From positions 1 to 64,000 of the forward strand of contig JAHXHN010000005.1 in NCBI GenBank assembly GCA_025656675.1: 64,000 bases of DNA. Direction: 5' to 3'. A program made the position numbers and the translations under genes. This DNA comes from Candidatus Thiodiazotropha sp. (ex Codakia rugifera) (GTDB lineage: Bacteria; Pseudomonadota; Gammaproteobacteria; Chromatiales; Chromatiaceae). The notes beneath the pieces are model-generated. The model saw only the letters and a list, made by a program, of their open reading frames with translations, was not told the origin of the DNA and ran no database searches. Of this stretch, positions 14,437-30,103 are shown one piece after another; position 1 is the first letter of the stretch, and every line of letters starts with the position of its first letter.

Positions 14437-15399
14437 TTATTCTTTTTCCTGTCGTGCCAGCCAAACCTCTAGGCCTTGGGCATTCAGCTCGAGATCCATC
14501 GACATCAATTGCACGATTGTCTCTGGTGACTGTTTGCAACCGTGTGCCTGAAGCTTGTTTATCAACCACTGCTGAAGCTCATTACGGATAATAGCAACGC
14601 GTTCTTGGCCGGGGTTGGCATCTGCTGACTTTGCAATGGCCGCGAAATCATCTAGATATTGACTGAGTTTGTCAGCCAGCTTTGCGGGTTCCGTTACTTC
14701 GCCATAGTGGGTCAAAAAGATCCTTTCTGGTGAAAGGTCCATCAGTCTGTCCAGGGTTACCTGCCATGTGTCCAGGTCAAACTGAATCGGTGTGGTCGTT
14801 GGCATGATGAAAGGGCCTTGCTCGGTATCAAATTCCCGGTAGGAGAGGCCGAAGGTGTCACCGGTGAAAATTGCACCGCTCAGGGCATCATGGATACAGA
14901 TATGGTGGCGTGCATGTCCAGGAGTATCCAGACAAAGCAGCACCCTATCGCCGAATGTCACTGTCATACCATCCGGCACCTCAGTGACACGCTGTTCGTC
15001 TATTGCTACCAGTTCACCGAATGCCGCTGAGAATTTCTCCTCGCCGTAGACTGCAGTTGCTCCAGCAATCAGTTTGGAGGGATCAATCATATGTTTGGCG
15101 CCAAAGGGGTGAATCAGCAGTGATGCATTGGGTAGCTTTTGCATCAGTGTTCCAGCGCCACCGGCATGATCCAGATGCACGTGGGTTGGAATGACATACT
15201 TCACTTGTGATGGGGCGATCCCCTTGGCAGCAAGTACATCCATGAGATGAGGTACGGTATGGCTGGTGCCCGTGTCGATAAACACAGCTTCACCCGCCGA
15301 TTCGATAAGGTAGCAGGCGGCCAGATTAGGTCGCTGGTAGTGGGTATCGATACAGGTAATTTGGTGTGAATAGTCTGTGATATGGATTGGCGGCATCAT
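14437..15399 (-). CDS. Metallo-beta-lactamase fold hydrolase
   Basis: A 320-aa MBL-fold protein. Metal ligands are visible: the HxHxDH motif in IPTHVHLDHAGGAG near residue 70, a further His in LDTPGHARHHICIH, Asp in IFTGDTFGLSY and His in IFLTHYGEV. The C-terminal ~100 aa is helical (KLADKLSQYLDDFAAIAKSAD). It lacks the persulfide dioxygenase or glyoxalase II hallmark spacing by eye, so the substrate is unknown. The start is the ATG pair at 15399; six bases separate it from the plsY stop codon, so the two genes form an operon. Confidence 0.85.
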   Translation of the reverse strand: MMPPIHITDYSHQITCIDTHYQRPNLAACYLIESAGEAVFIDTGTSHTVPHLMDVLAAKGIAPSQVKYVIPTHVHLDHAGGAGTLMQKLPNASLLIHPFGAKHMIDPSKLIAGATAVYGEEKFSAAFGELVAIDEQRVTEVPDGMTVTFGDRVLLCLDTPGHARHHICIHDALSGAIFTGDTFGLSYREFDTEQGPFIMPTTTPIQFDLDTWQVTLDRLMDLSPERIFLTHYGEVTEPAKLADKLSQYLDDFAAIAKSADANPGQERVAIIRNELQQWLINKLQAHGCKQSPETIVQLMSMDLELNAQGLEVWLARQEKE

Positions 15400-15405
15400 C
15401 TGGCC

Positions 15406-16011
15406 CTATGTTTCTTTGTTGTTGCTATTGGCAATCGACTCTTCCGAACCTTTGAGCAGGTTTGAGATATTGGATCGATGGCGCCAAAAAAGAAGGATAG
15501 ACAGAGCAACTTGCATGACTACCAGTTCCATCTCAGGCCAGATGGCCCAGACAATCAGTGGGGCCAAAGCCATTGAGACCAATGCGGAGAGAGAGGATAT
15601 GTTGACCACTTTTGCGACAAACAGCCAAATCAGTGCAACGGCTCCGCCGATACCCCAATGTAAACCAAACTGAACACCCAAAGCGGTCGCTACGCCCTTA
15701 CCCCCTTTGAATCCAAAAAAGACTGGATAGAGGTGACCAAGAAAGGCGGCTATTCCTGTGAATGCGAGAACCAGAGGTGTTGCCTCGAGCAGATGGGCAG
15801 CAACCATGGGGATGAGACCTTTCAAAGAATCGCCCAACAGGGTGATGGCGGCCGCCTTTTTTCCACCGATACGCAGTACGTTGGTAGCGCCTGGATTATT
15901 CGATCCTTGGCTTCTGGGATCAGGCAAGCCCATCAAACGACAAACGATGATAGCGCTGGATATGGAGCCAAGCAGGTAGGCCCCAAGTACGATGAGTGAA
16001 TCAGTGATCAT
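15406..16011 (-). CDS. plsY: Acyl-phosphate:glycerol-3-phosphate acyltransferase
   Basis: Integral inner-membrane enzyme that begins phospholipid synthesis by acylating glycerol-3-phosphate from acyl-phosphate. The 201 aa have about five hydrophobic segments and the three conserved loops: LGSISSAIIVCRLMGLPDPRSQGSNNPGATNVLR (first, with Ser and Asn), the glycine-rich FFGFKGGKGVATALGVQFGL (second), and a C-terminal RHRSNISNLLKGSE. It starts at ATG 16011, divergent from folB, which is the standard plsY-folB arrangement in Gammaproteobacteria. Confidence 0.95.
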   Translation of the reverse strand: MITDSLIVLGAYLLGSISSAIIVCRLMGLPDPRSQGSNNPGATNVLRIGGKKAAAITLLGDSLKGLIPMVAAHLLEATPLVLAFTGIAAFLGHLYPVFFGFKGGKGVATALGVQFGLHWGIGGAVALIWLFVAKVVNISSLSALVSMALAPLIVWAIWPEMELVVMQVALSILLFWRHRSNISNLLKGSEESIANSNNKET

Positions 16012-16139
16012 GTCTCAATTGGAACCTTAACCGCTATCCAGGTCAAGCTGATACCGGGTTAATTAAACTCAGGGGTTTGCTCACCTCCTTTTCTCCTCTA
16101 ACATGGGGCTCCTTTTTTATCGCACACGGCAAAATGTTT

Positions 16140-16496
16140 ATGGATATAGTCTTCATCAGGGATCTGCGCATCGATACTGTCATTGGTATCTATGACTGGG
16201 AGCGTGAGATCAGACAGACTGTGGTTTTCGACCTTGAAATGGGGGCGGATATCGCCAAAGCGGCAAGTAGTGACACGATCCAGGATACATTGGATTATAA
16301 GGCGGTAAGCAAGCGTCTCGTCGCGTTCGTGAGGGAGAGTGAGTTCCAGCTTGTAGAGACCTTGGCTGAACGATGTGCGGAAATTGTATTGACTGAGTTC
16401 CAGGTACCGTGGGTCAGGCTGATCCTCAATAAAGTGGGAGCGGTCAGTGCGGCACGTGATGTCGGAGTCATCATCGAGAGGGGACAGCGTGACTGA
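16140..16496 (+). CDS. folB: Dihydroneopterin aldolase
   Basis: Folate pathway enzyme converting dihydroneopterin to hydroxymethyl-dihydropterin. About 118 aa from the ATG at 16140 (MDIVFIRDLRIDTVIGIYDWERE), the usual family N-terminus; upstream in-frame starts at 16077 (TTG) and 16134 (ATG) give unlikely extensions. It keeps the family motifs DTLDYKAVSKRLVAFV and LVETLAERCAEIVL with the catalytic glutamate, and the C-terminal NKVGAVSAARDVGVIIER. Its stop overlaps the start of folK. Confidence 0.92.
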   Translation: MDIVFIRDLRIDTVIGIYDWEREIRQTVVFDLEMGADIAKAASSDTIQDTLDYKAVSKRLVAFVRESEFQLVETLAERCAEIVLTEFQVPWVRLILNKVGAVSAARDVGVIIERGQRD

Positions 16497-17010
16497 ACTT
16501 GAAGAGGTGAATGTTTGGCTTGGTCTGGGCAGTAATATGGAGCCGGAGAAACACATACCCGAGGCTGTACGCGATTTAGCGACTGTTTTCGGTGAGCTTC
16601 AGGTGTCCCCCGTTTATGAGAGCGAGGCCATCGGGTTTTCGGGTGATAACTTTCTCAATCTTGTGGTAGGTATCCGTACCAACTGTTCTCCAAGAGAGTT
16701 GGTGACTCAACTGCGACAGGTAGAGGAACGGCATGGTCGGCAAAGATCGGATGAGAAGTTTCTCTCTCGTACCCTCGATATCGATTTGCTGACCTATGGC
16801 GACCAAGTCGTCAATGATGGACCCATTCAACTCCCTCGGGATGAAATTCTGCGCTTTGCCTTTGTGCTCTTGCCCCTCTCAGATGTGGCTGGTAGCGAAG
16901 TACATCCTACAACGGGATCTACTTATAATCAGCTTTGGGCGGCATTCAATAAGCAGGATCAGCCCCTCTGGCAGGTTGATGGCGGATTGGTGTCAGGGGT
17001 CCTGGCTTGA
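16489..17010 (+). CDS. folK: 2-amino-4-hydroxy-6-hydroxymethyldihydropteridine pyrophosphokinase
   Basis: Second folate enzyme of the pair, pyrophosphorylating hydroxymethyl-dihydropterin. From GTG 16489 (8-base overlap with folB, preceded by GAGAGGGGA) it gives 173 aa beginning VTELEEVNVWLGLGSNM. Motifs: LGLGSNMEPEKHI, VSPVYESEAIGFSGDNFLN, EERHGRQRSDEKFLSRTLDIDLLTYG with the Mg-binding DIDLL pair, and LPRDEILRFAFVLLPLSDV. A longer frame from 16447 exists but would overlap folB by 50 bases. Translation is likely coupled to folB. Confidence 0.93.
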   Translation: MTELEEVNVWLGLGSNMEPEKHIPEAVRDLATVFGELQVSPVYESEAIGFSGDNFLNLVVGIRTNCSPRELVTQLRQVEERHGRQRSDEKFLSRTLDIDLLTYGDQVVNDGPIQLPRDEILRFAFVLLPLSDVAGSEVHPTTGSTYNQLWAAFNKQDQPLWQVDGGLVSGVLA

Positions 17011-17072
17011 CTGTATTGCCCCATCGATCTCTACGTTCGATTTAGCAAGGGGAACTTGTTGTTATGACTGAC

Positions 17073-17223
17073 AAAAAAAATCCCGGCACCCACTCCATGG
17101 GCACCAGGATCTCATGTCGCATTGTTTGGTTGGCAAATGGTTTCAATCCATGTACGTCCCTGTTCGTGTGTGCTTTCCCTCGCATCCCTGAATGCGACAG
17201 TGGAAAGTCTAAGTGAACAACCC
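17073..17223 (-). ncRNA. Candidate Csr/Rsm-type small RNA (RsmY/CsrB-like)
   Basis: This gene-free region carries a transcription terminator that works only on the minus strand. ATCCTGGTGCCC pairs over 12 bp with GGGTGCCGGGAT if three G-U pairs are allowed; on the plus strand these become A-C mismatches. Eight T follow (complement of 17073-17080). Upstream of it the RNA holds at least five GGA motifs: CAGGGATGCG in a CGCAT/ATGCG hairpin (17181-17196), GAGGGAAAG closing a CTTTCC/GGAAAG stem (17173-17207), ACAGGGACGT (17163-17154), ATGGATTGAAACCAT and ATGGAG. This is the build of CsrA/RsmA-titrating RNAs. The 5' end is a guess from a weak TATTTT -10 box. No similarity to 6S, tmRNA or SRP RNA was seen. 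Confidence 0.5.
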
Positions 17224-17254
17224 TAAAAAATATGCAGGATTAGTCTCATTTCGG

Positions 17255-17272
17255 GGTAGGCATTTTCTTACA
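17255..17272 (-). promoter_or_regulatory. GacA/UvrY-type box upstream of the candidate sRNA
   Basis: On the minus strand the sequence is TGTAAG-AAAATG-CCTACC. The known upstream activating sequence of Rsm-type sRNA genes is TGTAAG-N6-CTTACA; the left half matches fully and the right half 4 of 6. It lies about 40 bases before the guessed transcription start. The match supports the sRNA call but is short and could be chance. Confidence 0.4.
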
Positions 17273-17380
17273 CGAGTCAGCAGTCCGGGTTGATTCCGTT
17301 GTCCCTCTTTTGAAACAATCCCACCTCACAAACAATCAGGTCGAATACGTCGACTTTACACTTCCAGAGGAATTATACCC

Positions 17381-18622
17381 ATGTCGCTGATCAGAGCATT
17401 TACTGGACTGCGTCCTGCCGAAGGACGGGCAGCCGATGTAGCCGCGCCACCCTATGATGTCATGAACGAGGCTGAGGCACGGGAGATGGCGGTTGGGCGT
17501 CCATGGAGTTTTCTGCATATATCGAGGCCTGAGATTGACCTTCCGGAAGGTACTGATCCTTATGCGCCTGAGGTCTACACCAAAGCGGCTGAGAATTTAA
17601 CGAAAATGCAACAGGAGGGCATCCTGGTACGAGATGCCAGACCCAGCTACTACGTCTATCGACTGACCATGGGTGATCATCAGCAGACAGGGCTTGTGGC
17701 AGCCGCCTCGGTTGAAGCCTATGACAATGACCGAATCAAAAAGCATGAATTCACACGCCCAGCCAAAGAAGATGACAGGGTACGGCAGGTCGATGCTTTG
17801 AATGCTCAGACAGGCCCCGTATTCCTGGTCTATCCAAGTGCCCCCGCTGTAGATTCAATCCTAGTCCAGATATCACGGAATCCACCCGATATGGATGTCA
17901 CCGCAGCAGAGGGGGTACGGCATGAGATTTGGCTGCTGGATGATGATGTCAAGGTGGCGGAACTGACTCGGGAATTTGATCGGATGGGCGCCCTCTATGT
18001 GGCTGATGGTCATCATCGCTCAGCGGCAGGGTCAAGAGTGGCCGATTCACGCAGGGCTGCAAACCCGCATCATACGGGGGATGAGTCATATAATTATTTT
18101 CTGAGTGTCATCTTTCCCCATAATCAAATGCAGATCCTCGACTACAATCGAGTTGTCAAAGATCTGAATGGACTTGATAAAGAGACCTTTTTGTCACGGA
18201 TTAAAGCTTGCTTTCAGTTGCAGCTCAGTGATCGGCCTGTCAGACCGGGGCAGGCCGCTGAATTCGGTATGTATCTGGATAAACAGTGGTATCGACTGCG
18301 TCTCGATCCAGCACGAATCCCTAACGATGACCCGGTTGCAAAGCTGGATGTGAGTCTGTTGGCAAGCAATCTGATCGAACCTTTGCTTGGCATTGCTGAT
18401 CCGCGTCGTGATAGCCGCATCGATTTCGTGGGTGGTATTCGTGGTCTTGCAGGGTTAGAGCAACGGGTCGATTCGGGTGAGATGGCGGTGGCTTTCTCTC
18501 TCTTCCCCACCAGTATGGAGGAGCTGATGGCCGTTGCAGATGCAGGTGAGGTCATGCCACCGAAATCGACCTGGTTCGAGCCAAAACTGGCTGACGGGCT
18601 GGTGAGTCATGTGCTTGATTAA
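17381..18622 (+). CDS. DUF1015 family protein
   Basis: A 413-aa soluble protein of the widespread but uncharacterised DUF1015 (COG4198) family. It starts MSLIRAFTGLRPAEGRAADVAAPPYDVMNEAEAREMA, the family N-terminus with its AAPPYDV motif. Later come LHISRPEIDLP, HEFTRPAKEDDRVRQVDALNAQTGPVFLVY, VADGHHRSAAGSRVAD and SVIFPHNQMQILDYNRVVKDLNG. The DGHHR element recalls the DGxHR motif of ParB/Srx-fold nucleotide enzymes, and some relatives are thought to be kinases of small molecules; this is inference only. TTCCAGAGGAATTA provides the ribosome site. It is followed by relA on the same strand after 174 bp. Confidence 0.85.
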   Translation: MSLIRAFTGLRPAEGRAADVAAPPYDVMNEAEAREMAVGRPWSFLHISRPEIDLPEGTDPYAPEVYTKAAENLTKMQQEGILVRDARPSYYVYRLTMGDHQQTGLVAAASVEAYDNDRIKKHEFTRPAKEDDRVRQVDALNAQTGPVFLVYPSAPAVDSILVQISRNPPDMDVTAAEGVRHEIWLLDDDVKVAELTREFDRMGALYVADGHHRSAAGSRVADSRRAANPHHTGDESYNYFLSVIFPHNQMQILDYNRVVKDLNGLDKETFLSRIKACFQLQLSDRPVRPGQAAEFGMYLDKQWYRLRLDPARIPNDDPVAKLDVSLLASNLIEPLLGIADPRRDSRIDFVGGIRGLAGLEQRVDSGEMAVAFSLFPTSMEELMAVADAGEVMPPKSTWFEPKLADGLVSHVLD

Positions 18623-18796
18623 TTCAGGTAGTGAATTAAAAAACAATGATTCACCAGATGAATGCGGCACATTGCCCTATATAGAATTGAATTTAGCGGA
18701 TATTGTCATTGTTTAGATTTCACCACCGGGTGATCTAGGCTACACAGCGATAACTTAATTGATGGTCTTCAACTGAGGCTCCAGTTAAAAAAACAA

Positions 18797-20992
18797 ATGG
18801 TTACTACCAGCAGCAGCTTGCCAGAAGGGGATAGTGCCGATGCGGCTGTGGTCGCACATTGGCTGGCAATGTTGCCTGACGGATTCGACGATCAGGATCG
18901 TCTTCAGTTACGCAAGGCGGCAGATATTGCCCTGGCAGCGAATCCTGAACAACGAATACTGAGTGGAGAAACCCAGCTTCGACATGCACTCTCCATCGCT
19001 GAGATTCTGGTTAAGCTGCGTATGGATCGTGAGACAGTCGCGGCAGCTATGTTGCTGGGCGTTCTCAAAGATTCAGCCATCAGCCTGACAACCTTAAAAC
19101 AGGCGCTCGGTGAAAACATAGCCCGTATGGTCGATGATCTGGCACGTATAGGTCAGTTGACCGATGTCTCCACCGAGATTTCACCTGAGGATGAGGAGGA
19201 GCATGCGGAGAACCTGCGTCGATTGCTACTCGGTATTGCTGAGGATGTACGGGTGGTCCTGGTGGTGGTGGCGGAGCAGCTTCATCTGATGCGCTCTGCT
19301 CGTGGACTGTCGCAAGAGCTGAGCCGACGGTTGGCAAAGGAGACGCAGGAGATCTATGCACCCCTTGCCAATCGACTCGGTATCTGGCAGATCAAGTGGG
19401 AGTTGGAAGATCTGGCATTGCGCTTCCTCCATCCTGACGAATACAAGCAAATTGCCAGCCAGCTTGGTGGACGCAGGGCCGACCGGGAACAGTTCATCAA
19501 AGAGGTCATTGATCTCTTACGGGAGAAGTTTCTTGCCGTGGGCATCAATGCGGATATCAGTGGACGACCTAAGCATATCTACAGTATCTGGCGCAAAATG
19601 CAGCGCAAAGCAGTGGATATTAAACAGATATTCGATCTCCGTGCAGTACGAGTGTTGGTAGATGATATTGCCCAATGTTATGCAACACTGGGTGTAGTGC
19701 ATGGTTTGTGGAAACATATTCCCGGCGAGTTTGATGACTATATCGCTACACCAAAGGCCAATCTCTATCAATCGATCCACACGGCAGTGATCGGTCCGGA
19801 GGAAAAGACGCTGGAGGTACAAATTCGCACCCGTGACATGCACTATCACTCAGAACTGGGTGTGGCCGCACATTGGCGTTATAAAGAAAATACTAAGCAG
19901 GATAACGATTTTGAGCGGCGTATCGTCTGGATGCGTCAATGGTTGGAGAGGAAGGATGAGAATGGTGAAAGCACGGATCTGCTGGATGCAGAGATGGAGG
20001 CGACACGTATCTATGTGCTTACTCCGATGGGCAAGGTGGTGGAGCTGCCTAAAGGATCTACCCCCCTCGATTTTGCTTATGCCATCCATACCGATATAGG
20101 CCATCAATGTCGGGGAGCACGTGTGGATGGACATATCGTGCAACTTACCCGCTCACTTCGTAGTGGTGAGACCGTTGAAGTGCTGACCTCAAAAAATGGC
20201 ACACCCAGTCGCGACTGGATCAACCCCCACCTCGGTTATCTGCATAGCTCAAAGGCACGCAACCGCGTTAAACAGTGGTTCAAACAACTCGATTATAAGC
20301 ACCATGTAGAGCTGGGTCGTGCTGCGCTTGAGCGTGAAATGACGCGTCTGTCCATCAACGAAAAGCCGGATCTAGAGGTTGTTGCTACAAAGCACAATCT
20401 ACTGCATGCAGAGGATGTCTACGCGGCAATTGGCAGAGGTGACCTGTCACCTATCCAGGTTGCCGGTCTGGGTAGCAGGGAAAAAAACCCGACTCAGGAA
20501 GTTCTCATACCTGATCTGTCGCGTAATAAGGCAGCCGTGAAAGGGGAAGTGGTTGTTGCCGGGGTAGATGATCTGATGACCAGTATAGCGCGCTGCTGTA
20601 AGCCCGTGCCTTATGATCCGATAATTGGTTTCGTTACCCGAGGAAGGGGCGTAACGGTACATCGACGCGACTGTTCAAATATTCGTGCTCTGCAGGAGAT
20701 TGAAGGGGATCGGCTGGTCAGTGTACATTGGAGCGCCCAACAACAGGAGACCAGCTATGCTGTGGATTTCCTGGTTGTCGCCAGTGATCGGAAGGGTCTG
20801 TTGAGGGATATCTCTGCCATCCTCACCAACGAAGATATCGATGTTATCGGTGTTAATACCAACAGCGACCGTAAGACCGACTCAGCGAGTATGCGTTTTA
20901 CCATAGAGGTGCATAATATGGAGCAGCTTAGTCGCCTGTTGTCGAAAGTAGAACAGTTGCCGGATGTGACCTTGGTCAAGCGGTTGATATGA
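18797..20992 (+). CDS. relA: GTP pyrophosphokinase, (p)ppGpp synthetase I
   Basis: Ribosome-associated alarmone synthase of the stringent response. The 731 aa show a degenerate HD region without the HD hydrolase pair (residues ~60-200), the synthetase domain with SGRPKHIYSIWRKMQ, IFDLRAVRVLV and the EFDDYIATPKANLYQSIHTAV region around 300 (an acidic EFDD motif is typical of RelA rather than SpoT), then LEVQIRTRDMHYHSELGVAAHWRYKE. C-terminal TGS (VYVLTPMGKVVELPKGSTPLDFAYAIHTDIGH), the CC-rich conserved Cys region (ARCCKPVPYDPIIGFVTRGRGVTVHRRDC) and ACT domain complete the family order. The start ATG at 18797 lacks a strong ribosome site. Confidence 0.96.
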   Translation: MVTTSSSLPEGDSADAAVVAHWLAMLPDGFDDQDRLQLRKAADIALAANPEQRILSGETQLRHALSIAEILVKLRMDRETVAAAMLLGVLKDSAISLTTLKQALGENIARMVDDLARIGQLTDVSTEISPEDEEEHAENLRRLLLGIAEDVRVVLVVVAEQLHLMRSARGLSQELSRRLAKETQEIYAPLANRLGIWQIKWELEDLALRFLHPDEYKQIASQLGGRRADREQFIKEVIDLLREKFLAVGINADISGRPKHIYSIWRKMQRKAVDIKQIFDLRAVRVLVDDIAQCYATLGVVHGLWKHIPGEFDDYIATPKANLYQSIHTAVIGPEEKTLEVQIRTRDMHYHSELGVAAHWRYKENTKQDNDFERRIVWMRQWLERKDENGESTDLLDAEMEATRIYVLTPMGKVVELPKGSTPLDFAYAIHTDIGHQCRGARVDGHIVQLTRSLRSGETVEVLTSKNGTPSRDWINPHLGYLHSSKARNRVKQWFKQLDYKHHVELGRAALEREMTRLSINEKPDLEVVATKHNLLHAEDVYAAIGRGDLSPIQVAGLGSREKNPTQEVLIPDLSRNKAAVKGEVVVAGVDDLMTSIARCCKPVPYDPIIGFVTRGRGVTVHRRDCSNIRALQEIEGDRLVSVHWSAQQQETSYAVDFLVVASDRKGLLRDISAILTNEDIDVIGVNTNSDRKTDSASMRFTIEVHNMEQLSRLLSKVEQLPDVTLVKRLI

Positions 20993-21114
20993 CAATGAAG
21001 GATAAATCAGGTTTCAATTGCCAGTTCGGCTTGTCACAGCTAAACTAACACGCTGTTATTTTATGCATTTTCTCCCCTTCTGTCTGCACAGCTCAACATG
21101 GCGAAATACCTGTT

Positions 21115-22212
21115 TTGGCTAACGAAACGAAAATAATCAATCTTCTGGACCTTGATCTGAAAGGAATGGAGTCATTTTTTCTTGGGTTGGGCTCCAAGGC
21201 CTTCCATGGCAGAAATGTCTTTAAATGGATTCACAAGCATGGCGTCACTGACTTTGATGCCATGACCGATATTTCCAAACGCCTGCGTGAACAACTGCAT
21301 CAGTGTGCAGAGGTCAGCGTGCCACAACTGGTGTTTGAACAGCCGGCATCGGACGGTACCCGTAAGTGGGTGCTAGAGTTACAGGATGGTCAGCGCATAG
21401 AGACTGTCTGTATACCGGATGATGGTCGGAATACGATCTGTGTCTCTTCACAGGTGGGGTGTGCCCTCGATTGCTCTTTTTGTTCAACGGCGCGACAGGG
21501 ATTCAATCGTAACCTTACGGTTGCTGAGATAATCGGTCAGATATGGGTAGCCAGCCGCAAATTGGGTGCTGCACCGAGCAATATTGTGATGATGGGAATG
21601 GGAGAGCCCCTGGCCAATATCGATGCTGTCATTACAGCAATGAATATCATGCAGGATGATCTGGCATACATGGTTTCCAAATATCGGGTTACCATCAGTA
21701 CCTCGGGTCTCGTACCGGCACTCAATAGACTGCGAGAGGTGAGCGATGTCAGTCTGGCTGTCTCTCTGCATGCGCCTGACAATGAGCTTCGAAATAAACT
21801 GGTGCCCATTAATCGTAAGTATCCTCTGGAAGAACTGATTCCTGCCTGCCGTGAGTTTGTCAGGGGTGATAAACGACGGAAAGTGACTTGGGAATATGTC
21901 ATGCTCGATGGTATCAATGACTCATTGCAGCATGCCAAGGCATTGATTCGCCTCCTTGAAGGGACGCCTTCCAAAGTCAATCTGATCCCTTTCAATCCGT
22001 TTCCCGGCACCCACTATCAGACATCACCCGCTGATCGGGTAGAGGTCTTTCGAATGCGTCTGAAGCGCTCAGGTATAATCGCTACAACACGTAAAACCCG
22101 CGGTGATGATATCGATGCCGCCTGTGGCCAACTGGTTGGAAAGGTCAGGGACCGCAGCAGCAGAGAGCTGCGCTTGGATAAACTGGACACTATCAAATTG
22201 GGTATTTCATGA
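21115..22212 (+). CDS. rlmN: Dual-specificity 23S rRNA/tRNA adenine-2 methyltransferase
   Basis: Radical-SAM enzyme that methylates A2503 of 23S rRNA and A37 of some tRNAs. The 365 aa contain the radical SAM cysteines in SQVGCALDCSFCSTARQGFNRNLT, then MGMGEPLANIDAV, VTISTSGLVPALNRL, SLHAPDNELRNKLVPINRKYP, and the C-terminal TRKTRGDDIDAACGQLVGKV with the methyl-carrying cysteine. The start is a TTG (MANETKIINLLDL); no in-frame ATG exists nearby that keeps the conserved INLLDL. Its stop overlaps the next ATG by 4 bases (ATGA), so it is translationally coupled to pilW. Confidence 0.95.
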   Translation: MANETKIINLLDLDLKGMESFFLGLGSKAFHGRNVFKWIHKHGVTDFDAMTDISKRLREQLHQCAEVSVPQLVFEQPASDGTRKWVLELQDGQRIETVCIPDDGRNTICVSSQVGCALDCSFCSTARQGFNRNLTVAEIIGQIWVASRKLGAAPSNIVMMGMGEPLANIDAVITAMNIMQDDLAYMVSKYRVTISTSGLVPALNRLREVSDVSLAVSLHAPDNELRNKLVPINRKYPLEELIPACREFVRGDKRRKVTWEYVMLDGINDSLQHAKALIRLLEGTPSKVNLIPFNPFPGTHYQTSPADRVEVFRMRLKRSGIIATTRKTRGDDIDAACGQLVGKVRDRSSRELRLDKLDTIKLGIS

Positions 22213-22994
22213 AGTCATTCGCTGGTTTTCAACGCTTGAGTGCCATGCTGCTAATGGTGCTCCTCATAGGATGCTCGTCACAAGAGAAGGCGGTTGACAC
22301 GACCGGTAACCTGGGTTTGGAGAAGCGTACCAGTCCTGCCAAAATCTATGTCGAGATGGGTATGGCCTACATGCGTGATGGCCAGCAGGCGATAGCGATG
22401 CAGAAGCTCAAGAAGGCCCTGGATGTGGACGATGAGTTTTCTGAAGCACACAATGTCATGGCGATTCTCTATGAACAGTTGGGAGAGAGCGACCGGGCCG
22501 GTAAGCACTATGATCGGGCGGTTGAGCTGGATGGACGTGATCCCTTCATCCGCAATGCCCGCGGTAGTTACTACTGTCGGCGAGGTATGTTTGAAGAAGC
22601 AGACCTGGATTTTCAGCAAGCCTTATCCAATCCTCTCTATCCCACACCCTGGGTAGCACTGACGAATGCAGGGCTATGTGTTGAACGGACCGGGGACAGT
22701 GCCAAAGCAGAGAACTTCTATAGACGGGCTTTGACTGCCAATCCCAAGTATGCAACCGCACTGTTTCAAATGTCTAAAATCTCATTGCATCAACAAAAAG
22801 ACCTTTCAGCCCGCGCCTACCTTGAACGTTTCCATGGCGAATCAAAGCCCACAGCAGCATCACTATGGCTAGGTGTGCAGATTGAGAAACGTATGGGTGA
22901 TAGGACTAAAGCGGCTGAGTACAAGCATACACTGTTCAAGGATTTTCCGGATGCCCCTGAGATCCAGTCTCTCTATGAAGCTGAAAAACGATAA
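22209..22994 (+). CDS. pilW: Type IV pilus biogenesis/stability lipoprotein
   Basis: A 261-aa lipoprotein (PilF/PilW) that helps assemble the PilQ secretin in the outer membrane. The N-terminal signal ends in the lipobox LLIGC (MLLMVLLIGCSSQEK). The mature part is a run of TPR helices: AKIYVEMGMAYMRDGQQAIAMQKLKKALDVDDEFSEAHNVMAILYEQLGESDRAGKHYDRAVELD and so on. It sits in the conserved rlmN-pilW-rodZ order and overlaps rlmN by 4 bases and rodZ by 1 base. Confidence 0.92.
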   Translation: MKSFAGFQRLSAMLLMVLLIGCSSQEKAVDTTGNLGLEKRTSPAKIYVEMGMAYMRDGQQAIAMQKLKKALDVDDEFSEAHNVMAILYEQLGESDRAGKHYDRAVELDGRDPFIRNARGSYYCRRGMFEEADLDFQQALSNPLYPTPWVALTNAGLCVERTGDSAKAENFYRRALTANPKYATALFQMSKISLHQQKDLSARAYLERFHGESKPTAASLWLGVQIEKRMGDRTKAAEYKHTLFKDFPDAPEIQSLYEAEKR

Positions 22995-23989
22995 TGAATG
23001 TGTTGAGTAAAGATGAAAATCATCCGTCGCCTGACCCTGTTGTAGGTCCGGGTACTCAATTACGGAAGGCACGAGAACGGTTAGGTCTGGAACAGGCAAA
23101 AATGGCAGCACAACTGCATTTAAGCCAATCGATGATTGAGGCCCTTGAGTTAGATAACTACGAGCTGCTGCCCGGACCTGTATTCGTTCAAGGGTACCTG
23201 CGTAACTATTCCCGCTTGCTTGGGGTGAATGAAGAGGCTGTAATCGAGGCCTATCAGCGTCTGCTCCCGGTATCCGATGAGCTGCCTGCAGTCAGCCATC
23301 AAAATGGAAAGGTGGGAAAAGATCTGCATAGCGGTCATCGGGTCGTGCGTCTGGTGACATGGGCTATTCTGCTATTGTTAGTGGCGCTGCTGTTTTTCTG
23401 GTGGCAGACCCGGGTGGAATTGGAACAGCCGGTGGTACCCACACCGACTGAGGATCAATCTCTGCAAGTACCCCAGGATATGCCCACCGATCTGTCAACG
23501 CCTCTCCGGGTCCCTGTGGAGGAAGAGATGACAGATTCCATACCGCCACAGGAGAAGATGGAAGAGAAGAGCGCGCCAATGGATAGTGAAGTCGAGGAGA
23601 CAATGGAAGCAACAGAATCGGACATCGCCACGATTGAAGAACGCTTTCAGTTGCCCATCGAAACAGAGCCGCCTGAGGTTGTGGTAGAACCCCCGGAGCC
23701 ACAGATTACTCCGGTAGAGGTGGTTGCAACACCGGCTTCAAAACTGGTGGTGTTCGAATTTGATGAATCCTGCTGGGCGGAAGTTCGCGGCCAGGACGGC
23801 AAGACCCGCATTTTTGGAGAAATGAAATCCGGAGCAAAGCGTTCCCTGAATAGCCAGTTAGGGCCCTTCAACGTGATTTTGGGCAATGCAGCTGCTGTGA
23901 GGCTGACGATTGATGGCATCCCCTTTGATCTGAAGCCGTTTACACGTGGAAAGGTGGCACGCTTTACGCTGGATCCGGCTCAGCTTTAG
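22994..23989 (+). CDS. rodZ: Cytoskeleton protein RodZ (helix-turn-helix, single-pass membrane)
   Basis: A 331-aa bitopic protein that links the MreB cytoskeleton to cell-wall synthesis. Order of parts: N-terminal Xre-type helix-turn-helix with GTQLRKARERLGLEQAKMAAQLHLSQSMIEALELDNYELLPGPVFVQGYLRNYSRLLG (the RodZ hallmark), one transmembrane segment around residues 116-136 (VVRLVTWAILLLLVALLFFWW), a long acidic Pro/Glu-rich linker, and the C-terminal beta domain (LVVFEFDESCWAEVRGQDGKTRIFGEMKSGAKRSLNSQLGPFNVILGNAAAVRLTIDG). It starts at ATG overlapping the pilW stop. Confidence 0.93.
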   Translation: MNVLSKDENHPSPDPVVGPGTQLRKARERLGLEQAKMAAQLHLSQSMIEALELDNYELLPGPVFVQGYLRNYSRLLGVNEEAVIEAYQRLLPVSDELPAVSHQNGKVGKDLHSGHRVVRLVTWAILLLLVALLFFWWQTRVELEQPVVPTPTEDQSLQVPQDMPTDLSTPLRVPVEEEMTDSIPPQEKMEEKSAPMDSEVEETMEATESDIATIEERFQLPIETEPPEVVVEPPEPQITPVEVVATPASKLVVFEFDESCWAEVRGQDGKTRIFGEMKSGAKRSLNSQLGPFNVILGNAAAVRLTIDGIPFDLKPFTRGKVARFTLDPAQL

Positions 23990-24182
23990 TCACACAGCAT
24001 CAGTAATATCAAGCGTAGTTGCACAGGCTGACAACCTATATACAATGCGGCAGGACTACACACTGCCTGGTATCCATGGGTACACATTCCTACGCTGCAC
24101 TAGGTAAGCCTGCTGTTCCGTGGTAATCTTCACCGTTTTATCCAAACCAGCCTAGTTTCACACCCAACATCAAAAACAACCG

Positions 24183-25463
24183 ATGGCAAAGCAGATCCAA
24201 GCCATACGCGGGATGAAGGATATCCTGCCGCAACAGACGCCTCTTTGGCAGTTTCTCGAAGATCGGGTTCGCTCGGTACTCAGCCGTTATGGCTATGCTG
24301 AGATCCGCATGCCGATCGTTGAAATGACCGAGCTTTTCAAGCGTTCGATCGGCGAGGTTACCGATATCGTCGAGAAGGAGATGTATACTTTTGCCGACCG
24401 CAATGGCGACAGTCTTACCCTGCGTCCCGAAGGCACTGCAGGATGTGTGCGTGCAGGTCTGGAAAATGGTCTGATTTTCAATCAAACACAGCGGCTCTGG
24501 TACCAGGGCCCGATGTTTCGCCACGAGCGTCCACAAAAGGGTCGCTATCGTCAGTTCCACCAGATAGGTGTCGAGACCTTTGGATTGGCGGGACCGGATA
24601 TCGACCTGGAACTGATCCTGATCACCGCCAGGATCTGGCAGGAACTGGGTCTGCAGGGGCTCGAGCTCCAGCTCAATACATTAGGTACAGCAGAAGAGCG
24701 TGGTCAATACCGTGATCAGCTGATCGCCTATTTTAAAGGGCACATGGATGAGCTCGATGAGGATAGCCTGCGCAGGCTGGAGAGCAATCCGCTGCGAATC
24801 CTGGATAGCAAGAATCCGAAAATGGCCGCAGTGGTAGAGAACGCTCCCAGCCTGATGGAACACCTTGGTGAGACTTCATTACGACACTTTGAGGTGTTGC
24901 GTGAGGGGCTCGATGCGGCAGGTGTGAGTTATGTCCTCAATCCCCGCCTGGTTCGAGGTTTGGACTATTACAGCCGAACTGTCTTCGAATGGGTGACAGA
25001 CAGTCTGGGCGCACAAGGTACAATCTGTGCCGGTGGGCGTTACGATGGACTGGTCGATCAGTTAGGTGGAAAACCAACCGCAGCGGTTGGTTTTGCTATG
25101 GGGCTGGAGAGGGTGATCGCTATGCTGGAGAGCACCGATCTGGCAGAACAACTCCCTGGTCCTGATGTCTACCTGGTGATGATGGGGGAGAGCGCAGCAC
25201 GGGAAGGAGTGATTCTGGCCGAACAGTTACGTAGTGCACTCCCCGCATTGCGCCTCATCTGTCATTGTGGGGGAGGCGGCTTCAAGAACCAGCTTAAAAA
25301 GGCAGATAAGAGTCGTGCCCGGTATGCACTCATACTGGGTGAGGACGAAGTTGCCCGCAAAGAGATCGGTCTGAAACCACTGCGTGGCGAAGGCGATCAG
25401 CAGCAGATCGCACTATCGCAGCTTGAAGCCAGGCTTGCAGAAATGATAGTCCGGCATGGGTAA
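24183..25463 (+). CDS. hisS: Histidyl-tRNA synthetase
   Basis: Class II aminoacyl-tRNA synthetase charging tRNA-His. The 426 aa show [26 protein letters not shown], motif 1 region ([20 protein letters not shown]), [18 protein letters not shown], motif 2 ([32 protein letters not shown]), the HisA loop [16 protein letters not shown], and motif 3 ([16 protein letters not shown]). It starts at the ATG ([10 protein letters not shown]). In most Gammaproteobacteria ispG sits between rodZ and hisS; here only a 193-bp gap without a gene is found. Confidence 0.97.
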
Positions 25464-25610
25464 TGAACTGAATTCTAGTGTGTTTAATGGCAGCTTATCG
25501 CTTAGTCAACCATTGACGTTGCTGTTCAGATTTGATGCCCAGGTAAAAAACTGAAGCGATGGCTTCAGGTTAAAGTTATAAAATCAGAGAGATAAAAAAG
25601 GTTACATATA

Positions 25611-26237
25611 ATGAGCGTATATCAGACCGAAGAAGAACAGGTCGAGGCGATCAAACGCTGGTGGAAAGAGAATGGTACCTCTGTGATTGCCGGCTTGGTC
25701 ATCGGACTTGGCGGCGTTTTTGGCTGGCAGGCTTGGGGTAACTACCAGGATCGTATCGGCGGCGATGCAGCACTTGCCTTCAGCCAAATGTTGGGCGCTG
25801 TGGAGCGCAGGGACGCCACTTCTGCTGCAAAACAGGCAGAGTTGATGCGAGCGAATTACGACAATAGCAACTACGCTGTATTTGCCGCTCTGGCTGAGGC
25901 CAGGTTGAAACTCGATGAAGGTGATGTGGCTATTGCAAAATCCAGACTCGAATGGGCGAATCAGCAGGCCGATAATCCTGCTTTAAAGCAGCTTGTGCAG
26001 CTCAATTTGGCCAGAATTCTCCTTGATGAGGGTGAACTGGATGCGGCCGAAAAGCTGGTTGCCGCCACCGAAGGGGGATTTGCCGGTGAGTTTGCTGCAC
26101 TGAGAGGGGATATCGCTTTTGCCAGGGGAGATAAGGCCTCAGCGGCCACTGCTTATACGCAGGCGATGACGTTAGATGTCAACAACCCTGGCCTGTTGCA
26201 GATGAAGCTCGACGATTTAGCGGTCGCAACCCCTTGA
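25611..26237 (+). CDS. yfgM: YfgM family ancillary SecYEG translocon subunit
   Basis: A 208-aa membrane-anchored protein. A cytoplasmic N-terminus (MSVYQTEEEQVEAIKRWWKENG) is followed by one transmembrane segment (residues ~23-41, TSVIAGLVIGLGGVFGWQAW) and a periplasmic TPR-like helical domain (ALAEARLKLDEGDVAIAKSRLEWANQQADNPALKQLVQLNLARILLDEGELDAAEKLV). YfgM works with PpiD at the Sec translocon in E. coli. Here it lies between hisS and bamB, which is the conserved order. A GAGATAAAAAAGG ribosome site precedes the ATG. Confidence 0.9.
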   Translation: MSVYQTEEEQVEAIKRWWKENGTSVIAGLVIGLGGVFGWQAWGNYQDRIGGDAALAFSQMLGAVERRDATSAAKQAELMRANYDNSNYAVFAALAEARLKLDEGDVAIAKSRLEWANQQADNPALKQLVQLNLARILLDEGELDAAEKLVAATEGGFAGEFAALRGDIAFARGDKASAATAYTQAMTLDVNNPGLLQMKLDDLAVATP

Positions 26238-26244
26238 GGCGGAG

Positions 26245-27402
26245 ATGAGACGAATACTGCTCTGGCCCTCACTGTTACTGTTGGCAGGTTGTAGCGCCTT
26301 CACTGGAAAAGATAATGCCGACCCTCCTTCTGAGCTGGTCGAATTGCAGGCGGAGATCCGCATTGAGACGCTCTGGAAGGAGGGACTGGAAGGTTCCGAG
26401 GAGACACTGCTTAAACTGAAGCCGGTCATCAGCGATGGGGTGCTCTACGTAGCCGAGCCCTCCGGAGAGGTGATTGCTCTCGATCCCGAAACCGGCGATC
26501 AACACTGGTCGGTGGATACCGATAGTCCACTCAGCGGTGGACCCGGCGCAGGTGATGGGTTACTCGCACTGGGTACCCTGGAGGCGGAGCTGATCCTGCT
26601 GAATGCACTGGATGGTGCGGAAAGATGGCGCCAACGGGTCAGCAGTGAAGTTTTGTCGACACCGGCCATCAACGGTGGACGAGTGGTGTGCCGAACAACG
26701 GATGGGGGCTTGACGGCTTATGCAACCGATAGTGGTGAAAAGCGCTGGAATTATGATCGCAGTGTTCCGGTACTGACCCTGCGTGGTGACAGCTCACCAC
26801 TGATCAGTGAATCGCAGGTATTGGCTGGATTCGCAGGTGGTAAATTAGTCGGGTTATCATTGGATGCCGGTCTGGTGACCTGGGAGGTGGCGATCTCTAC
26901 ACCCCAGGGACGGACTGAGCTGGAACGGGTTGTGGATATCGATGCTGATCCGGAACTGGTGGAGGGTACCCTCTATGTGTCGGCGTTTCAGGGAGAAGTG
27001 GCTGCTGTCTCCGAATCGAGCGGTGTGGTGCTGTGGCGCCGTAAAATCTCTTCCCATGCCGGATTGGATGCCAATTGGCGTCAACTCTTTGTTACCGATG
27101 ATGTCGATCATGTCTGGTCTCTGGATGCCACCAATGGTGCTACTTTGTGGCAACAGAAGGCGTTGCATGCCCGTAGACTCTCTGCCCCTGCCATGTTGAA
27201 TGACTATCTTGTAGTGGGGGATTTCGAGGGCTATCTCCATTGGCTCTCCCAGGAGGATGGCCGACAGTTGGCGCGGGTCAAGATCGGCAGTGATGCAATA
27301 CGACTCAAACCCTTGGTATCGGGTGATATCGTCTATGTATTGGACGAGGGGGGCAGGCTCAGTGCGCTGAAAGCCCATCCCATCGAGGCTGAGACAGAGT
27401 GA
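26245..27402 (+). CDS. bamB: Outer membrane protein assembly factor BamB
   Basis: A 385-aa lipoprotein subunit of the BAM complex. The signal ends in the lipobox LLAGC ([21 protein letters not shown]). The rest forms an eight-bladed PQQ-like beta propeller with repeats such as [77 protein letters not shown] and [28 protein letters not shown]. It starts at ATG seven bases after the yfgM stop and ends one base before der, so it is probably co-transcribed with both. Confidence 0.94.
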
Positions 27403-27403
27403 T

Positions 27404-28795
27404 ATGCTGCCGGTAATCGCCCTGGTAGGGCGTCCCAATGTGGGTAAATCCACCCTGTTTAATCGCCTGACCCGCAGTCGCGATGCCCTGGTGGCCGATC
27501 AACCCGGCCTGACGCGGGACCGTAAGTACGGTACCGGTAAGCTCGGTAAAAATCCCTATGTGGTGGTTGATACCGGTGGAATCAGTGGTGATCAGATCGG
27601 CATAGAACAGTTGATGGAGCAGCAGGTCAGACAGGCGATTGGTGAAGCTGACCATATCCTGTTTTTGCTCGATGCCAAACAGGGATGTACCGGAGGTGAT
27701 GAGATGATCGCCCAACAGCTGCGCCGTACCGGCAAACCGGTCACCCTTGCAGTCAACAAAAGTGAAGGCATGGAGGAGGATCTGGCCGCCAGCGATTTCT
27801 ATCGGTTGGGATTCAACCAGCCTCATGCCATTGCGGCTGTACATGGTCGTGGGGTGCACAACCTCATCGATCAGGTACTCGATTCCCTGCCACCCTCAGA
27901 AGAGGAGGTGGCGTCTGAAGAGCGGGGTATCCAGATCGCTGTGGTGGGTCGTCCGAATGTGGGTAAATCGACCCTGGTAAACCGTCTGTTGGGTGAAGAG
28001 CGGGTGGTTGCCTACGACCAGCCCGGTACCACCCGGGATAGCATCTATATCCCTTTTGTCCGCAACGACAGGCACTATACCCTGATCGATACGGCAGGTG
28101 TCAGACGTCGTGCACGAATCAAGGAAGCAATTGAAAAGTTCAGCATCGTCAAGACCCTGCAGTCCATAGAAGAGGCCAATGTTGTACTCCTGGTTTTGGA
28201 TGCCCAGCAAGGCATCGGGGAGCAGGATGCCACTCTGGCGGGGCACGTGCTTGAAAGTGGCAGAGCGCTTATTCTGGTGATCAACAAGTGGGATGGTCTT
28301 ACTCAGGATCAGCGGGAGTGGATCAAGAATGAGATTGAGCGGAAGCTTCCCTTTCTCAGTTTTGCCCAACACCATTTCATCTCTGCACTACATGGATCCG
28401 GGGTGGGCGATCTGTTCGGTCTGGTCGATCGGGTCTATGCCAGTGCCATGCGCGATCTTTCAACACCGGAATTGACCCGGCTCCTTGAAGCACTGGTGCA
28501 GGAACATCAACCCCCCCTGGTGCATGGCCGTCGCATTAAACTGCGCTATGCTCATCAGGGAGGTAAGAACCCACCGTTGATCGTCATTCATGGCAATCAG
28601 ACAGAGCAGGTGCCGGATAGCTATAAACGCTATCTGATCAGCCGCTTCCGCAAGGTGTTGAAGCTGAAGGGAACACCCATCCGGGTTGAGTTTCGTTCCG
28701 GCAGTAATCCTTATGAGGGTAAGAAGAATACACTCACCAAGCGCCAGATCCAGAAGCGTCAACGACTGAAGCAGTTCGTTACGCGTAAGCATTGA
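27404..28795 (+). CDS. der: Ribosome biogenesis GTPase Der (EngA)
   Basis: Essential GTPase with two tandem G domains, acting in 50S subunit maturation. The 463 aa have G1 motifs [16 protein letters not shown] (residues ~8-20) and [15 protein letters not shown] (~182), with DTGG and DTAG G3 motifs, NKSE and NKWD G4 motifs, then the KH-like C-terminal domain ([61 protein letters not shown]). The ATG starts one base after the bamB stop codon; a spore-photolyase-like gene follows after 9 bp. Confidence 0.96.
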
Positions 28796-28804
28796 CGCCA
28801 TCTC

Positions 28805-30103
28805 GTGAAGGCAAAGTCCTTAACTTACGAGGAACGGCTGGCAGCATTGATGCAACAGTCGGGCATCGAGCGGCTCGACAGTCACCACCAGCAATTCATT
28901 CAACAACAGGCCTTGGCTTTTCGCTTCACCCAGCAGGAGTTGCGACAGCTTTGTGATATTGCCACTGACCTGACAATGTGGGGTGAGGCAGGTTTAAATG
29001 AAGTCTGGCCGGAGATTGACAGCGAAAATCTTGCGCCCAAGCAACGGCGACAAAAGCTGTTGCAACAGCTGCGTAACCACTGGTTGCAGTTGAAGGAGCA
29101 ACCAAACAGCTACCCGGCCCTCCCGATAGCACCGGCCCACGATACACAACGCATCAAACGGACTCATACCGAAAAAACGAAACTGGCACTTGGACGCTGC
29201 CCGGTGGCGTCGTCACGGACCCGCTGCTGTAACCTGATGACCCTGGATGCGGTTGAGAACTGCGGTTTTGACTGCAGCTACTGCAGTATTCAATCCTTCT
29301 ATCATGGCGATGAAGTGCGTTTCGACAGCCGCTTTGGCGAAAAACTGGCCCAGCTCGAGGTCGATCCGGACAGGTTCTACCATATCGGTACAGGTCAATC
29401 TTCAGACTCCCTGATGTGGGGCAATCAGGCCGGGATACTGGATGCATTGCTCGATTTCGCACGATGCCATCCCAACGTTATGTTGGAACTGAAGACAAAA
29501 TCAAAAAACATCAGCCATCTGCTGAAGACGGATAATCCGCCGAATCTACTCTGTACCTGGTCCCTCAATACCCCCACCCTGATTGCAAACGAAGAGCACC
29601 TGACCGCCACCCTGGATGAACGATTGAGAGCGGCGCGTCGACTGGCGGATCGTGGGGTGCTGGTCGGCTTTCACTTTCATCCCATGATCCACTACCAAGG
29701 GTGGCGTGATGATTATGCTGCCCTGTTTCAACGCTTGGTCGAAGAGTTTTCAGCTGATGAAGTGGTGCTGGTATCGCTGGGCACCCTGACCTATATCAAG
29801 CCTGTCATCAAGCAGTTGCGGACCCGTAAAGGGTTTCGCAGCAAGATCCTGCAGATGCCGATGGTCGAGAGTGACGGCAAACTCTCCTATCCACAGGCCA
29901 TCAAGCAGGAAATGTTCAGCTTTGCCTATCAGTCGCTGCGGGCCTGGCATGATAAGGTTTTTTTCTATCTGTGCATGGAGAATCATCATCTCTGGCAGCC
30001 TGTGTTTGGCTATGATTATCCATCCAATCCGGCTTTTGAAGAGGCCATGAAACAAGCCTATCTGAGTAAAATTAGAAATGTTAGGGGTCGTGGTGAGCGT
30101 TGA
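28805..30103 (+). CDS. Spore photoproduct lyase-like radical SAM protein
   Basis: A 432-aa radical SAM protein of the SplB-like family. The cluster motif is the unusual CxxxCxxC, seen as ENCGFDCSYCSIQSFYH near residue 155 with further Cys at TRCCNL just before it. Later parts are IGTGQSSDSLMWGNQAGILDALLDFARCHPNVMLELKTKSKNI and VLVGFHFHPMIHYQGWRDDY, typical of SPL. True spore photoproduct lyases repair spore DNA; this organism is not a spore former, so its substrate is probably another UV or nucleic-acid lesion (inference). It starts at GTG 28805, 9 bp after der, and overlaps the putP start by 11 bases. N-terminal ~140 aa is a helical extension. Confidence 0.82.
   Translation: MKAKSLTYEERLAALMQQSGIERLDSHHQQFIQQQALAFRFTQQELRQLCDIATDLTMWGEAGLNEVWPEIDSENLAPKQRRQKLLQQLRNHWLQLKEQPNSYPALPIAPAHDTQRIKRTHTEKTKLALGRCPVASSRTRCCNLMTLDAVENCGFDCSYCSIQSFYHGDEVRFDSRFGEKLAQLEVDPDRFYHIGTGQSSDSLMWGNQAGILDALLDFARCHPNVMLELKTKSKNISHLLKTDNPPNLLCTWSLNTPTLIANEEHLTATLDERLRAARRLADRGVLVGFHFHPMIHYQGWRDDYAALFQRLVEEFSADEVVLVSLGTLTYIKPVIKQLRTRKGFRSKILQMPMVESDGKLSYPQAIKQEMFSFAYQSLRAWHDKVFFYLCMENHHLWQPVFGYDYPSNPAFEEAMKQAYLSKIRNVRGRGER

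Follow-up and report, generated by a model that had tools for sequence, protein, structure and literature searches.

Organization of the folK–DUF1015 locus

The window, a 64,000-nucleotide stretch of contig JAHXHN010000005.1 of Candidatus Thiodiazotropha sp. (ex Codakia rugifera; genome size 4.65 Mb), contains a folK gene and a gene for a DUF1015 protein, with a predicted RNA gene on the minus strand between them (Table 1). A sequence-only reading had proposed an unannotated Csr/Rsm-type small RNA (sRNA) at this site, and both neighbors that it named were identified by matches to PF01288 and PF06245. The DUF1015 protein shares 95% identity with its homologue in Candidatus Thiodiazotropha sp. 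LCAP3_T1; most of the named relatives that follow come from symbionts of lucinid clams. No open reading frame of at least 60 amino acids overlaps positions 17073–17272 on either strand, while a terminator is present. The 3′ end first assigned to an RNA of about 150 nt within these positions was maintained. The probable transcript start, however, lies near 17198–17203 and not at 17272, and the RNA is therefore about 127 nt long; the rest of the region is occupied by the GacA-type box and the promoter.

Table 1. Features of the folK–DUF1015 locus (positions refer to the window; alignment A2 and the 45-member family are described in the text)
Feature	Position	Strand	Basis or remark
folK (HPPK), convergent neighbor	16447..17010	+	PF01288, 102.6 bits
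Predicted Csr/Rsm-type sRNA, ~127 nt	17073..17200	-	5′ end tentative; conservation, structure, covariance model
Intrinsic terminator	17073..17113	-	loop with GGA motif 5 (17094–17096)
Closing stem, 3′ arm UGCGAC	17116..17121	-	RNAalifold and covariation
Conserved stretch UUGCCAACCAA	17126..17136	-	invariant in A2 (22 rows); CCAACC in 41/45 family rows
GGA motif 4	17147..17149	-	nearly invariant
GGA motif 3, hairpin GAACAGGGACGU	17154..17165	-	GGA invariant in 22 rows
GGA motif 2	17176..17178	-	invariant, 22 aligned sequences
GGA motif 1	17185..17187	-	invariant, 22 aligned sequences
Closing stem, 5′ arm GUCGCA	17193..17198	-	helix 1, 99.3% of cells paired
Tentative −10 hexamer TAGACT	17206..17211	-	read from sequence
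Weaker second palindrome AATGAGACTAATCCTGCA	17233..17250	-	14/18 positions; 22 bp nearer the RNA
Primary GacA-type box TGTAAGAAAATGCCTACC	17255..17272	-	center ~64–65 bp before the first base of GUCG
DUF1015 protein gene, divergent neighbor	17381..18622	+	PF06245, 377.3 bits

Conservation and distribution of the RNA family

The region was matched in all 22 genomes of the genus that were searched, including the genome of the window itself, and the RNA adjoins the DUF1015 gene in five named loci of tubeworm symbionts (Escarpia, Lamellibrachia), which like the clam symbionts are sulfur oxidizers. Alignment A1 consists of 24 rows, and identities to the window were averaged over 21 rows with the two nearest relatives omitted. 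The mean identity was 0.76 for the RNA body, 0.79 for the terminator and 0.83 for the box. Of the intervening stretches, that joining box and RNA had a mean identity of 0.63, that joining DUF1015 and box 0.51, and that joining terminator and folK 0.26. Alignment A2 comprises 22 of the 24 A1 sequences, the near-duplicates L062 and L085 having been dropped; GUCGC, GCGAC, UUGCCAACCAA, four GGA motifs and some of the terminator are among its invariant columns.

Two covariance models were built, R1 from A2 and R2 from A4, an alignment of 45 copies. Of 116 genomes from this taxonomic family, R1 matched 54 (E ≤ 1) and R2 matched 64 (E ≤ 0.001), with up to five copies per genome. Since the other 52 genomes gave no R2 match, with filters that lose weak matches, absence or divergence of the RNA is common in the taxonomic family. 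Among 369 genomes drawn from the class R2 matched 11, three of which are family members, and CCAACC is kept in at least three of the eight class genomes from outside the family (L189, L190, and L192). The copies L190 and L192, which belong to other families, keep GCCAACCA and a GGCGA arm and have a terminator loop lacking GGA. TGTAAG-N6 boxes occur in L190 (at −63) and in L192 (further upstream, with an uncertain 5′ end). L193 (962–1207) has a tRNA and, after it, an RtT RNA match that narrowly exceeds the gathering score; both lie upstream of a weak match to the sRNA model.

The genome of the window contains two R2 copies, the second of which (C6:30671-30805) is located between an alpha/beta-hydrolase gene, which we take to be pip-like from how it reads, and typA. 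A relative, G003, has five copies, four of them in tandem between typA and the pip-like gene (L173, G003:C7:1042500-1046200), and the L174 copy has the same neighbors as judged by eye. The fourth copy of the L173 array is weak (25.6 bits with R1 and 54.9 with R2) and was lost from A4 by the 1e-6 threshold. Also omitted from A4 were L141, L175, L177, L178, and L179 as near-duplicates, and L184. Alignment A3 leaves out L177 and L178 and includes L163 and L179, which represent the same place twice. A third R1 hit in the genome of the window, L184 (C2:273717, 31.8 bits), was rejected as a copy; it overlaps an open reading frame for an alanine-zipper lipoprotein, has three GGA motifs and lacks a box at the distance typical of the family. 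This hit was absent from the R2 matches of the genome searches, and at the locus itself R2 scored 26.7 bits over a 64-nt piece.

Secondary structure, GGA motifs, and terminator

The RNAalifold consensus of A2, which was calculated before any model was built, consists of a closing stem, a GGA hairpin and the terminator (helices 1, 2, and 3), with changes on both sides in 6 of 24 pairs. In A4, helix 1 has two such pairs (CG/UA and CG/AU), in helix 2 both pairs are changed on both sides with 91% of the cells paired, and in the terminator helix all 12 pairs are changed on both sides. The hairpins and GGA motifs are conserved in close relatives, with paired changes in three helices. Over the whole of A4, which leans towards the model because the alignment was fitted to it, 97.4% of the cells were paired and 16 of 20 pairs were changed on both sides; none of 500 shuffles reached any of the pairing measures, and sliding the partner by 1–3 columns reduced pairing to 32–45%. 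RNAalifold also proposed 2-bp pairs between GGA and CCAACC. These were left out of R2 because the columns are nearly invariant and neither support nor refute pairing.

The fold of the single 200-nt region was only mildly better than that of shuffled sequences (z = −1.94), and its best structure lacked the closing stem in favor of another hairpin, whereas the fold of the 127-nt transcript has the closing stem. The predicted probability of this stem had a median of 1.0 over the 41 copies in which the 3′ arm could be placed by a pattern (no arm was located in 4 of 45), and was 0.32–0.34 in the two tubeworm copies of the folK–DUF1015-type locus in A4. In the predicted ensembles, several GGA motifs are partly engaged in pairing.

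The sequence-only reading had counted at least five GGA motifs, and the predicted transcript, read on the minus strand, has six: five outside the 3′ stem arm of the terminator and one inside it. This number is not unusual for a single sequence (dinucleotide-shuffle mean 4.2, P = 0.17), nor are the four motifs that remain without the terminator (mean 2.9, P = 0.28). The GGA number of this one sequence is not above chance; it is conservation that makes the case for an sRNA. Summed over the 45 family members the GGA total was 262, compared to 200 shuffles that averaged 159 and reached at most 181. The hairpin GAACAGGGACGU agrees in 10 of 12 letters with the CsrA SELEX site, given as RUACARGGAUGU in the available part of PMC7652899, and in L060, L067 and other relatives that carry GAACAGGGAUGU the agreement is 11 of 12. 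The fourth GGA motif is kept in the five tubeworm rows with a shift of one column.

A terminator scan recovered the minus-strand terminator (17113–17073) that had been read by eye, with a 12-bp core including three G-U pairs and followed by eight U. Between 16900 and 17500 two terminator-like sites were found, against a shuffle mean of 0.4, and the one at 17113–17073 is the longer.

GacA-type boxes and promoter region

The TGTAAG-N6-CCTACC sequence that had been noted upstream of the RNA is present on the minus strand at 17272–17255 and agrees in 10 of 12 letters with TGTAGG-N6-CCTACA. The pattern TGT[AC]AG-N6-CCTAC occurs in 22 of 24 aligned rows, the exceptions being L058 (ACTAC) and L068 (TATCAG). 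A scan of the region with the sigma-70 consensus found no promoter.

The distance between box and RNA is well conserved. Of the 45 copies, 42 (93%) have a box with at least 12 of 18 matching letters centered 60–68 bp upstream of GUCG, compared with 14% in shuffles (maximum 29%); in 33 of the 45 the highest-scoring box is centered at a distance of exactly 64 or 65 bp. About 22 bp closer to the RNA, between −38 and −46, another site scoring 12/18 or more was present in 53% of the 45 copies (shuffles 13%, maximum 29%). For all these values the scoring letters were picked after boxes had been seen, and the sequences are related, so that the comparison with shuffles overstates their independence. 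Box scores at −49 to −57, −104 to −112, and −126 to −134 were within the shuffle range for the 45 copies, as was the 24% of all rows with a box at −82 to −90 (shuffle maximum 33%). In five copies (three of the L173 tandem copies, L174, and L183) the highest-scoring box lies at −86/−87, and the box at −64/−65 is weaker. In the L173 array each of the four copies is preceded by a GacA-type box about 86 bp upstream, the fourth being weak (9/12). L183, the second copy in the genome of the window (G000:C6:29171-32305, 1410–1500), has three box-like palindromes at −86, −64, and −41, phased by approximately 22 bp. Such a spacing is near two helical turns, and we infer that it reflects dimers positioned on one face of the DNA, as would be expected.

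Across the 4.65-Mb genome three places match TGTMRG-N6-CYTACM: the upstream regions of the two RNA genes and the end of one other gene. With 8 matches for the same pattern read backwards there is no enrichment as such, and position is what counts. The third match (C3:451983) covers the stop codon of a gene for an RRM protein and was taken as chance.

Closer to the DUF1015 gene, at window positions 17309–17319, is the element TTTGAAACAAT, which is conserved upstream of DUF1015 and looks like part of its promoter. This element was first assumed to be a piece of the RNA promoter. It was then reassigned to DUF1015, since an exact or near version lies beside that gene in L074, L075, L077, and L080, for which R2 gave no match to the RNA. 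At 10 named loci with a DUF1015 gene and no adjoining RNA, R2 detected no copy.

Comparison with Rfam

Searches of the window, 20 relative loci and a further 10 with all families of Rfam 15 gave no match to a Csr/Rsm family, and the Csr families gave no match at the site at loose E-values. The Infernal check with known families suggested in the sequence-only reading was thus negative. None of the Rfam families reached its gathering score at the RNA site; low-threshold hits to SNORA5, Cyano-1, PyrR209, and GlsR13 near the site were below their gathering scores and were taken as chance. The CsrB model RF00018 gave no match in the whole genome; in a control it matched 5 of 14 genomes including E. 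coli, one of them over the cut-off. Elsewhere in the window, an SAH riboswitch aptamer was found on the minus strand at 1986–2067 (RF01057, 70.4 bits, above the Rfam gathering score).

Because the Rfam and Infernal searches gave no known Csr/Rsm family, the sRNA is a sequence family of its own within the known class of Csr/Rsm sponges, and is new within the reach of the searches.

CsrA, GacA, and GacS in the symbiont

The genome encodes CsrA (60 amino acids, 115.8 bits at a cut-off of 73). The best GacA candidate scored 276.5 bits, just under the NCBIfam cut-off of 280, and the best BarA/GacS candidate 707 bits, under the cut-off of 890. Although formally below threshold, the two are probably orthologues.

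TPM values tend to favor short genes. For Ca. T. endolucinida in three clam hosts, a table of the shared genes with the highest transcription has been published; among its available rows csrA is at the top, with median TPM values of 85,248, 78,450, and 83,987, the next row shown having 14,798–30,867 (PMC13137333). It is also among the top shared genes in the accessible part of a second study (PMC12172469). The words sRNA and GacA occur in neither main text, as far as these were available (PMC13137333, PMC12172469). In the open-licence PMC literature found, as far as its text was accessible, no CsrA-antagonist RNA is named for Ca. Thiodiazotropha, and a description elsewhere is possible. Combining Endoriftia with CsrA gave no match in open-licence PMC text, and GCCAACCAA with CsrA gave matches that concern other organisms. 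Among the matches listed there were none for Sedimenticola in the CsrA and small-RNA literature, for Chromatiales in literature on CsrA, sRNA, Rfam, and GGA, or for lucinid in literature on symbionts, small RNA, and GacA. The available main text of a paper on Csr-sRNA prediction (PMC5568370) contains no word beginning with Thio, Sedimenticola, or Allochromatium.

Proposed function and alternative explanations

The minus-strand RNA gene in the folK–DUF1015 gap very probably encodes a CsrA-sequestering sRNA of the RsmX/Y/Z-CsrB functional class. The evidence in hand consists of the conservation of the gene, the covarying structure, the kept GGA motifs and box, and the presence of csrA and probable gacA and gacS genes. 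The proposed membership of an unannotated RNA in this class was supported by the conservation, the paired changes, the paralogues with their own boxes and the occurrence of CsrA and probable GacA/GacS. From these data we infer transcription of the predicted sRNA, binding of GacA and CsrA, and titration of CsrA. In the proposed mechanism, GacA phosphorylated via a GacS/BarA-type kinase would bind the palindrome about 64 bp upstream of the RNA 5′ end, probably assisted by the phased second site some 22 bp closer, and would activate the minus-strand promoter. The RNA of about 127 nt may then form a closed multiloop that offers GGA motifs to CsrA dimers, with one more GGA in the terminator loop, and would titrate CsrA off mRNAs. 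The diverged second copy between the pip-like hydrolase gene and typA is predicted to act likewise.

Three other explanations were weighed. The RNA could be a GacA-activated sRNA acting mainly by base-pairing through UUGCCAACCAA, with the GGA motifs secondary, serving stability or as a minor CsrA site. Conservation of the stretch, with CCAACC in 41 of 45 rows, matches that of the GGA motifs, and CsrA binding does not account for it. However, the number of GGA motifs is kept, with 5–8 in each of the 45 copies and one in the terminator loop in most rows, and the combination of many GGA motifs with a GacA box is the signature of a sponge. Moreover, sequestration of RsmA by an sRNA requires several GGA motifs, according to the accessible part of PMC2375449. 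A mainly base-pairing RNA thus appears unlikely.

Still less probable is that the region forms a cis element, a promoter or attenuator, of the divergent DUF1015 gene instead of an RNA gene. The site lies some 180 bp upstream of DUF1015 and the DUF1015-linked TTTGAAACAAT is conserved as well, but in the four loci named above that element or a close version persists at DUF1015 without the RNA, and the RNA is found again between the pip-like gene and typA. The terminator and the covarying structure, furthermore, are on the strand opposite to DUF1015. The GGA count and the folding of the single sequence, which are only mildly unusual, would fit a chance combination of scattered GGA motifs with the terminator of another minus-strand transcript; against the conservation, the pair changes on both sides and the fixed box distance throughout the family, this explanation is hardly credible.

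The RNA gene at 17073–~17200 is thus most likely a real Csr/Rsm-type sponge with a conventional mechanism. A more elaborate version of this function is a tentative possibility, in which dual-function Csr RNAs combine CsrA titration with use of UUGCCAACCAA as an antisense seed or docking site held by the closing stem, and in which two or three GacA sites about 22 bp apart might set the sponge dose through co-operative GacA binding together with copy number.

The sRNA is likely the missing arm of the CsrA circuit in these uncultured chemosynthetic symbionts and their relatives. For this family, which has no Rfam match, an alignment and a covariance model are now in place, and the roles of a conserved non-GGA stretch and of phased GacA sites in Csr RNAs become testable.

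Comparison with known Csr/Rsm systems

RsmX, RsmY, and RsmZ of Pseudomonas end in an intrinsic terminator, a feature shared with the symbiont sRNA. They are also similar in their length of 110–133 nt, in having several GGA motifs, some in loops, in the palindromic GacA upstream sequence, and in the occurrence of multiple and tandem copies, as described in the available parts of PMC4353343 and PMC7911923. The Pseudomonas boxes given in the former are TGTAAGCATTCTCTTACA (rsmY) and TGTAAGCATTCGCTTACT (PMC4353343, accessible part). In contrast, the best boxes of the symbiont family are TGTAGG-N6-CCTACA and a phased second box is common, a comparison made by description. The symbiont family is further marked by its 5′/3′ closing stem and UUGCCAACCAA, which set it apart by description, and its RNA has no Rfam match to the Rsm families.

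CsrB and CsrC of enterobacteria are controlled by UvrY/BarA. Like the symbiont sRNA they are CsrA decoys with repeated GGA in hairpin loops, as stated in the available part of PMC7652899, but the CsrB model, at 356 positions, is about three times as long as the symbiont RNA.
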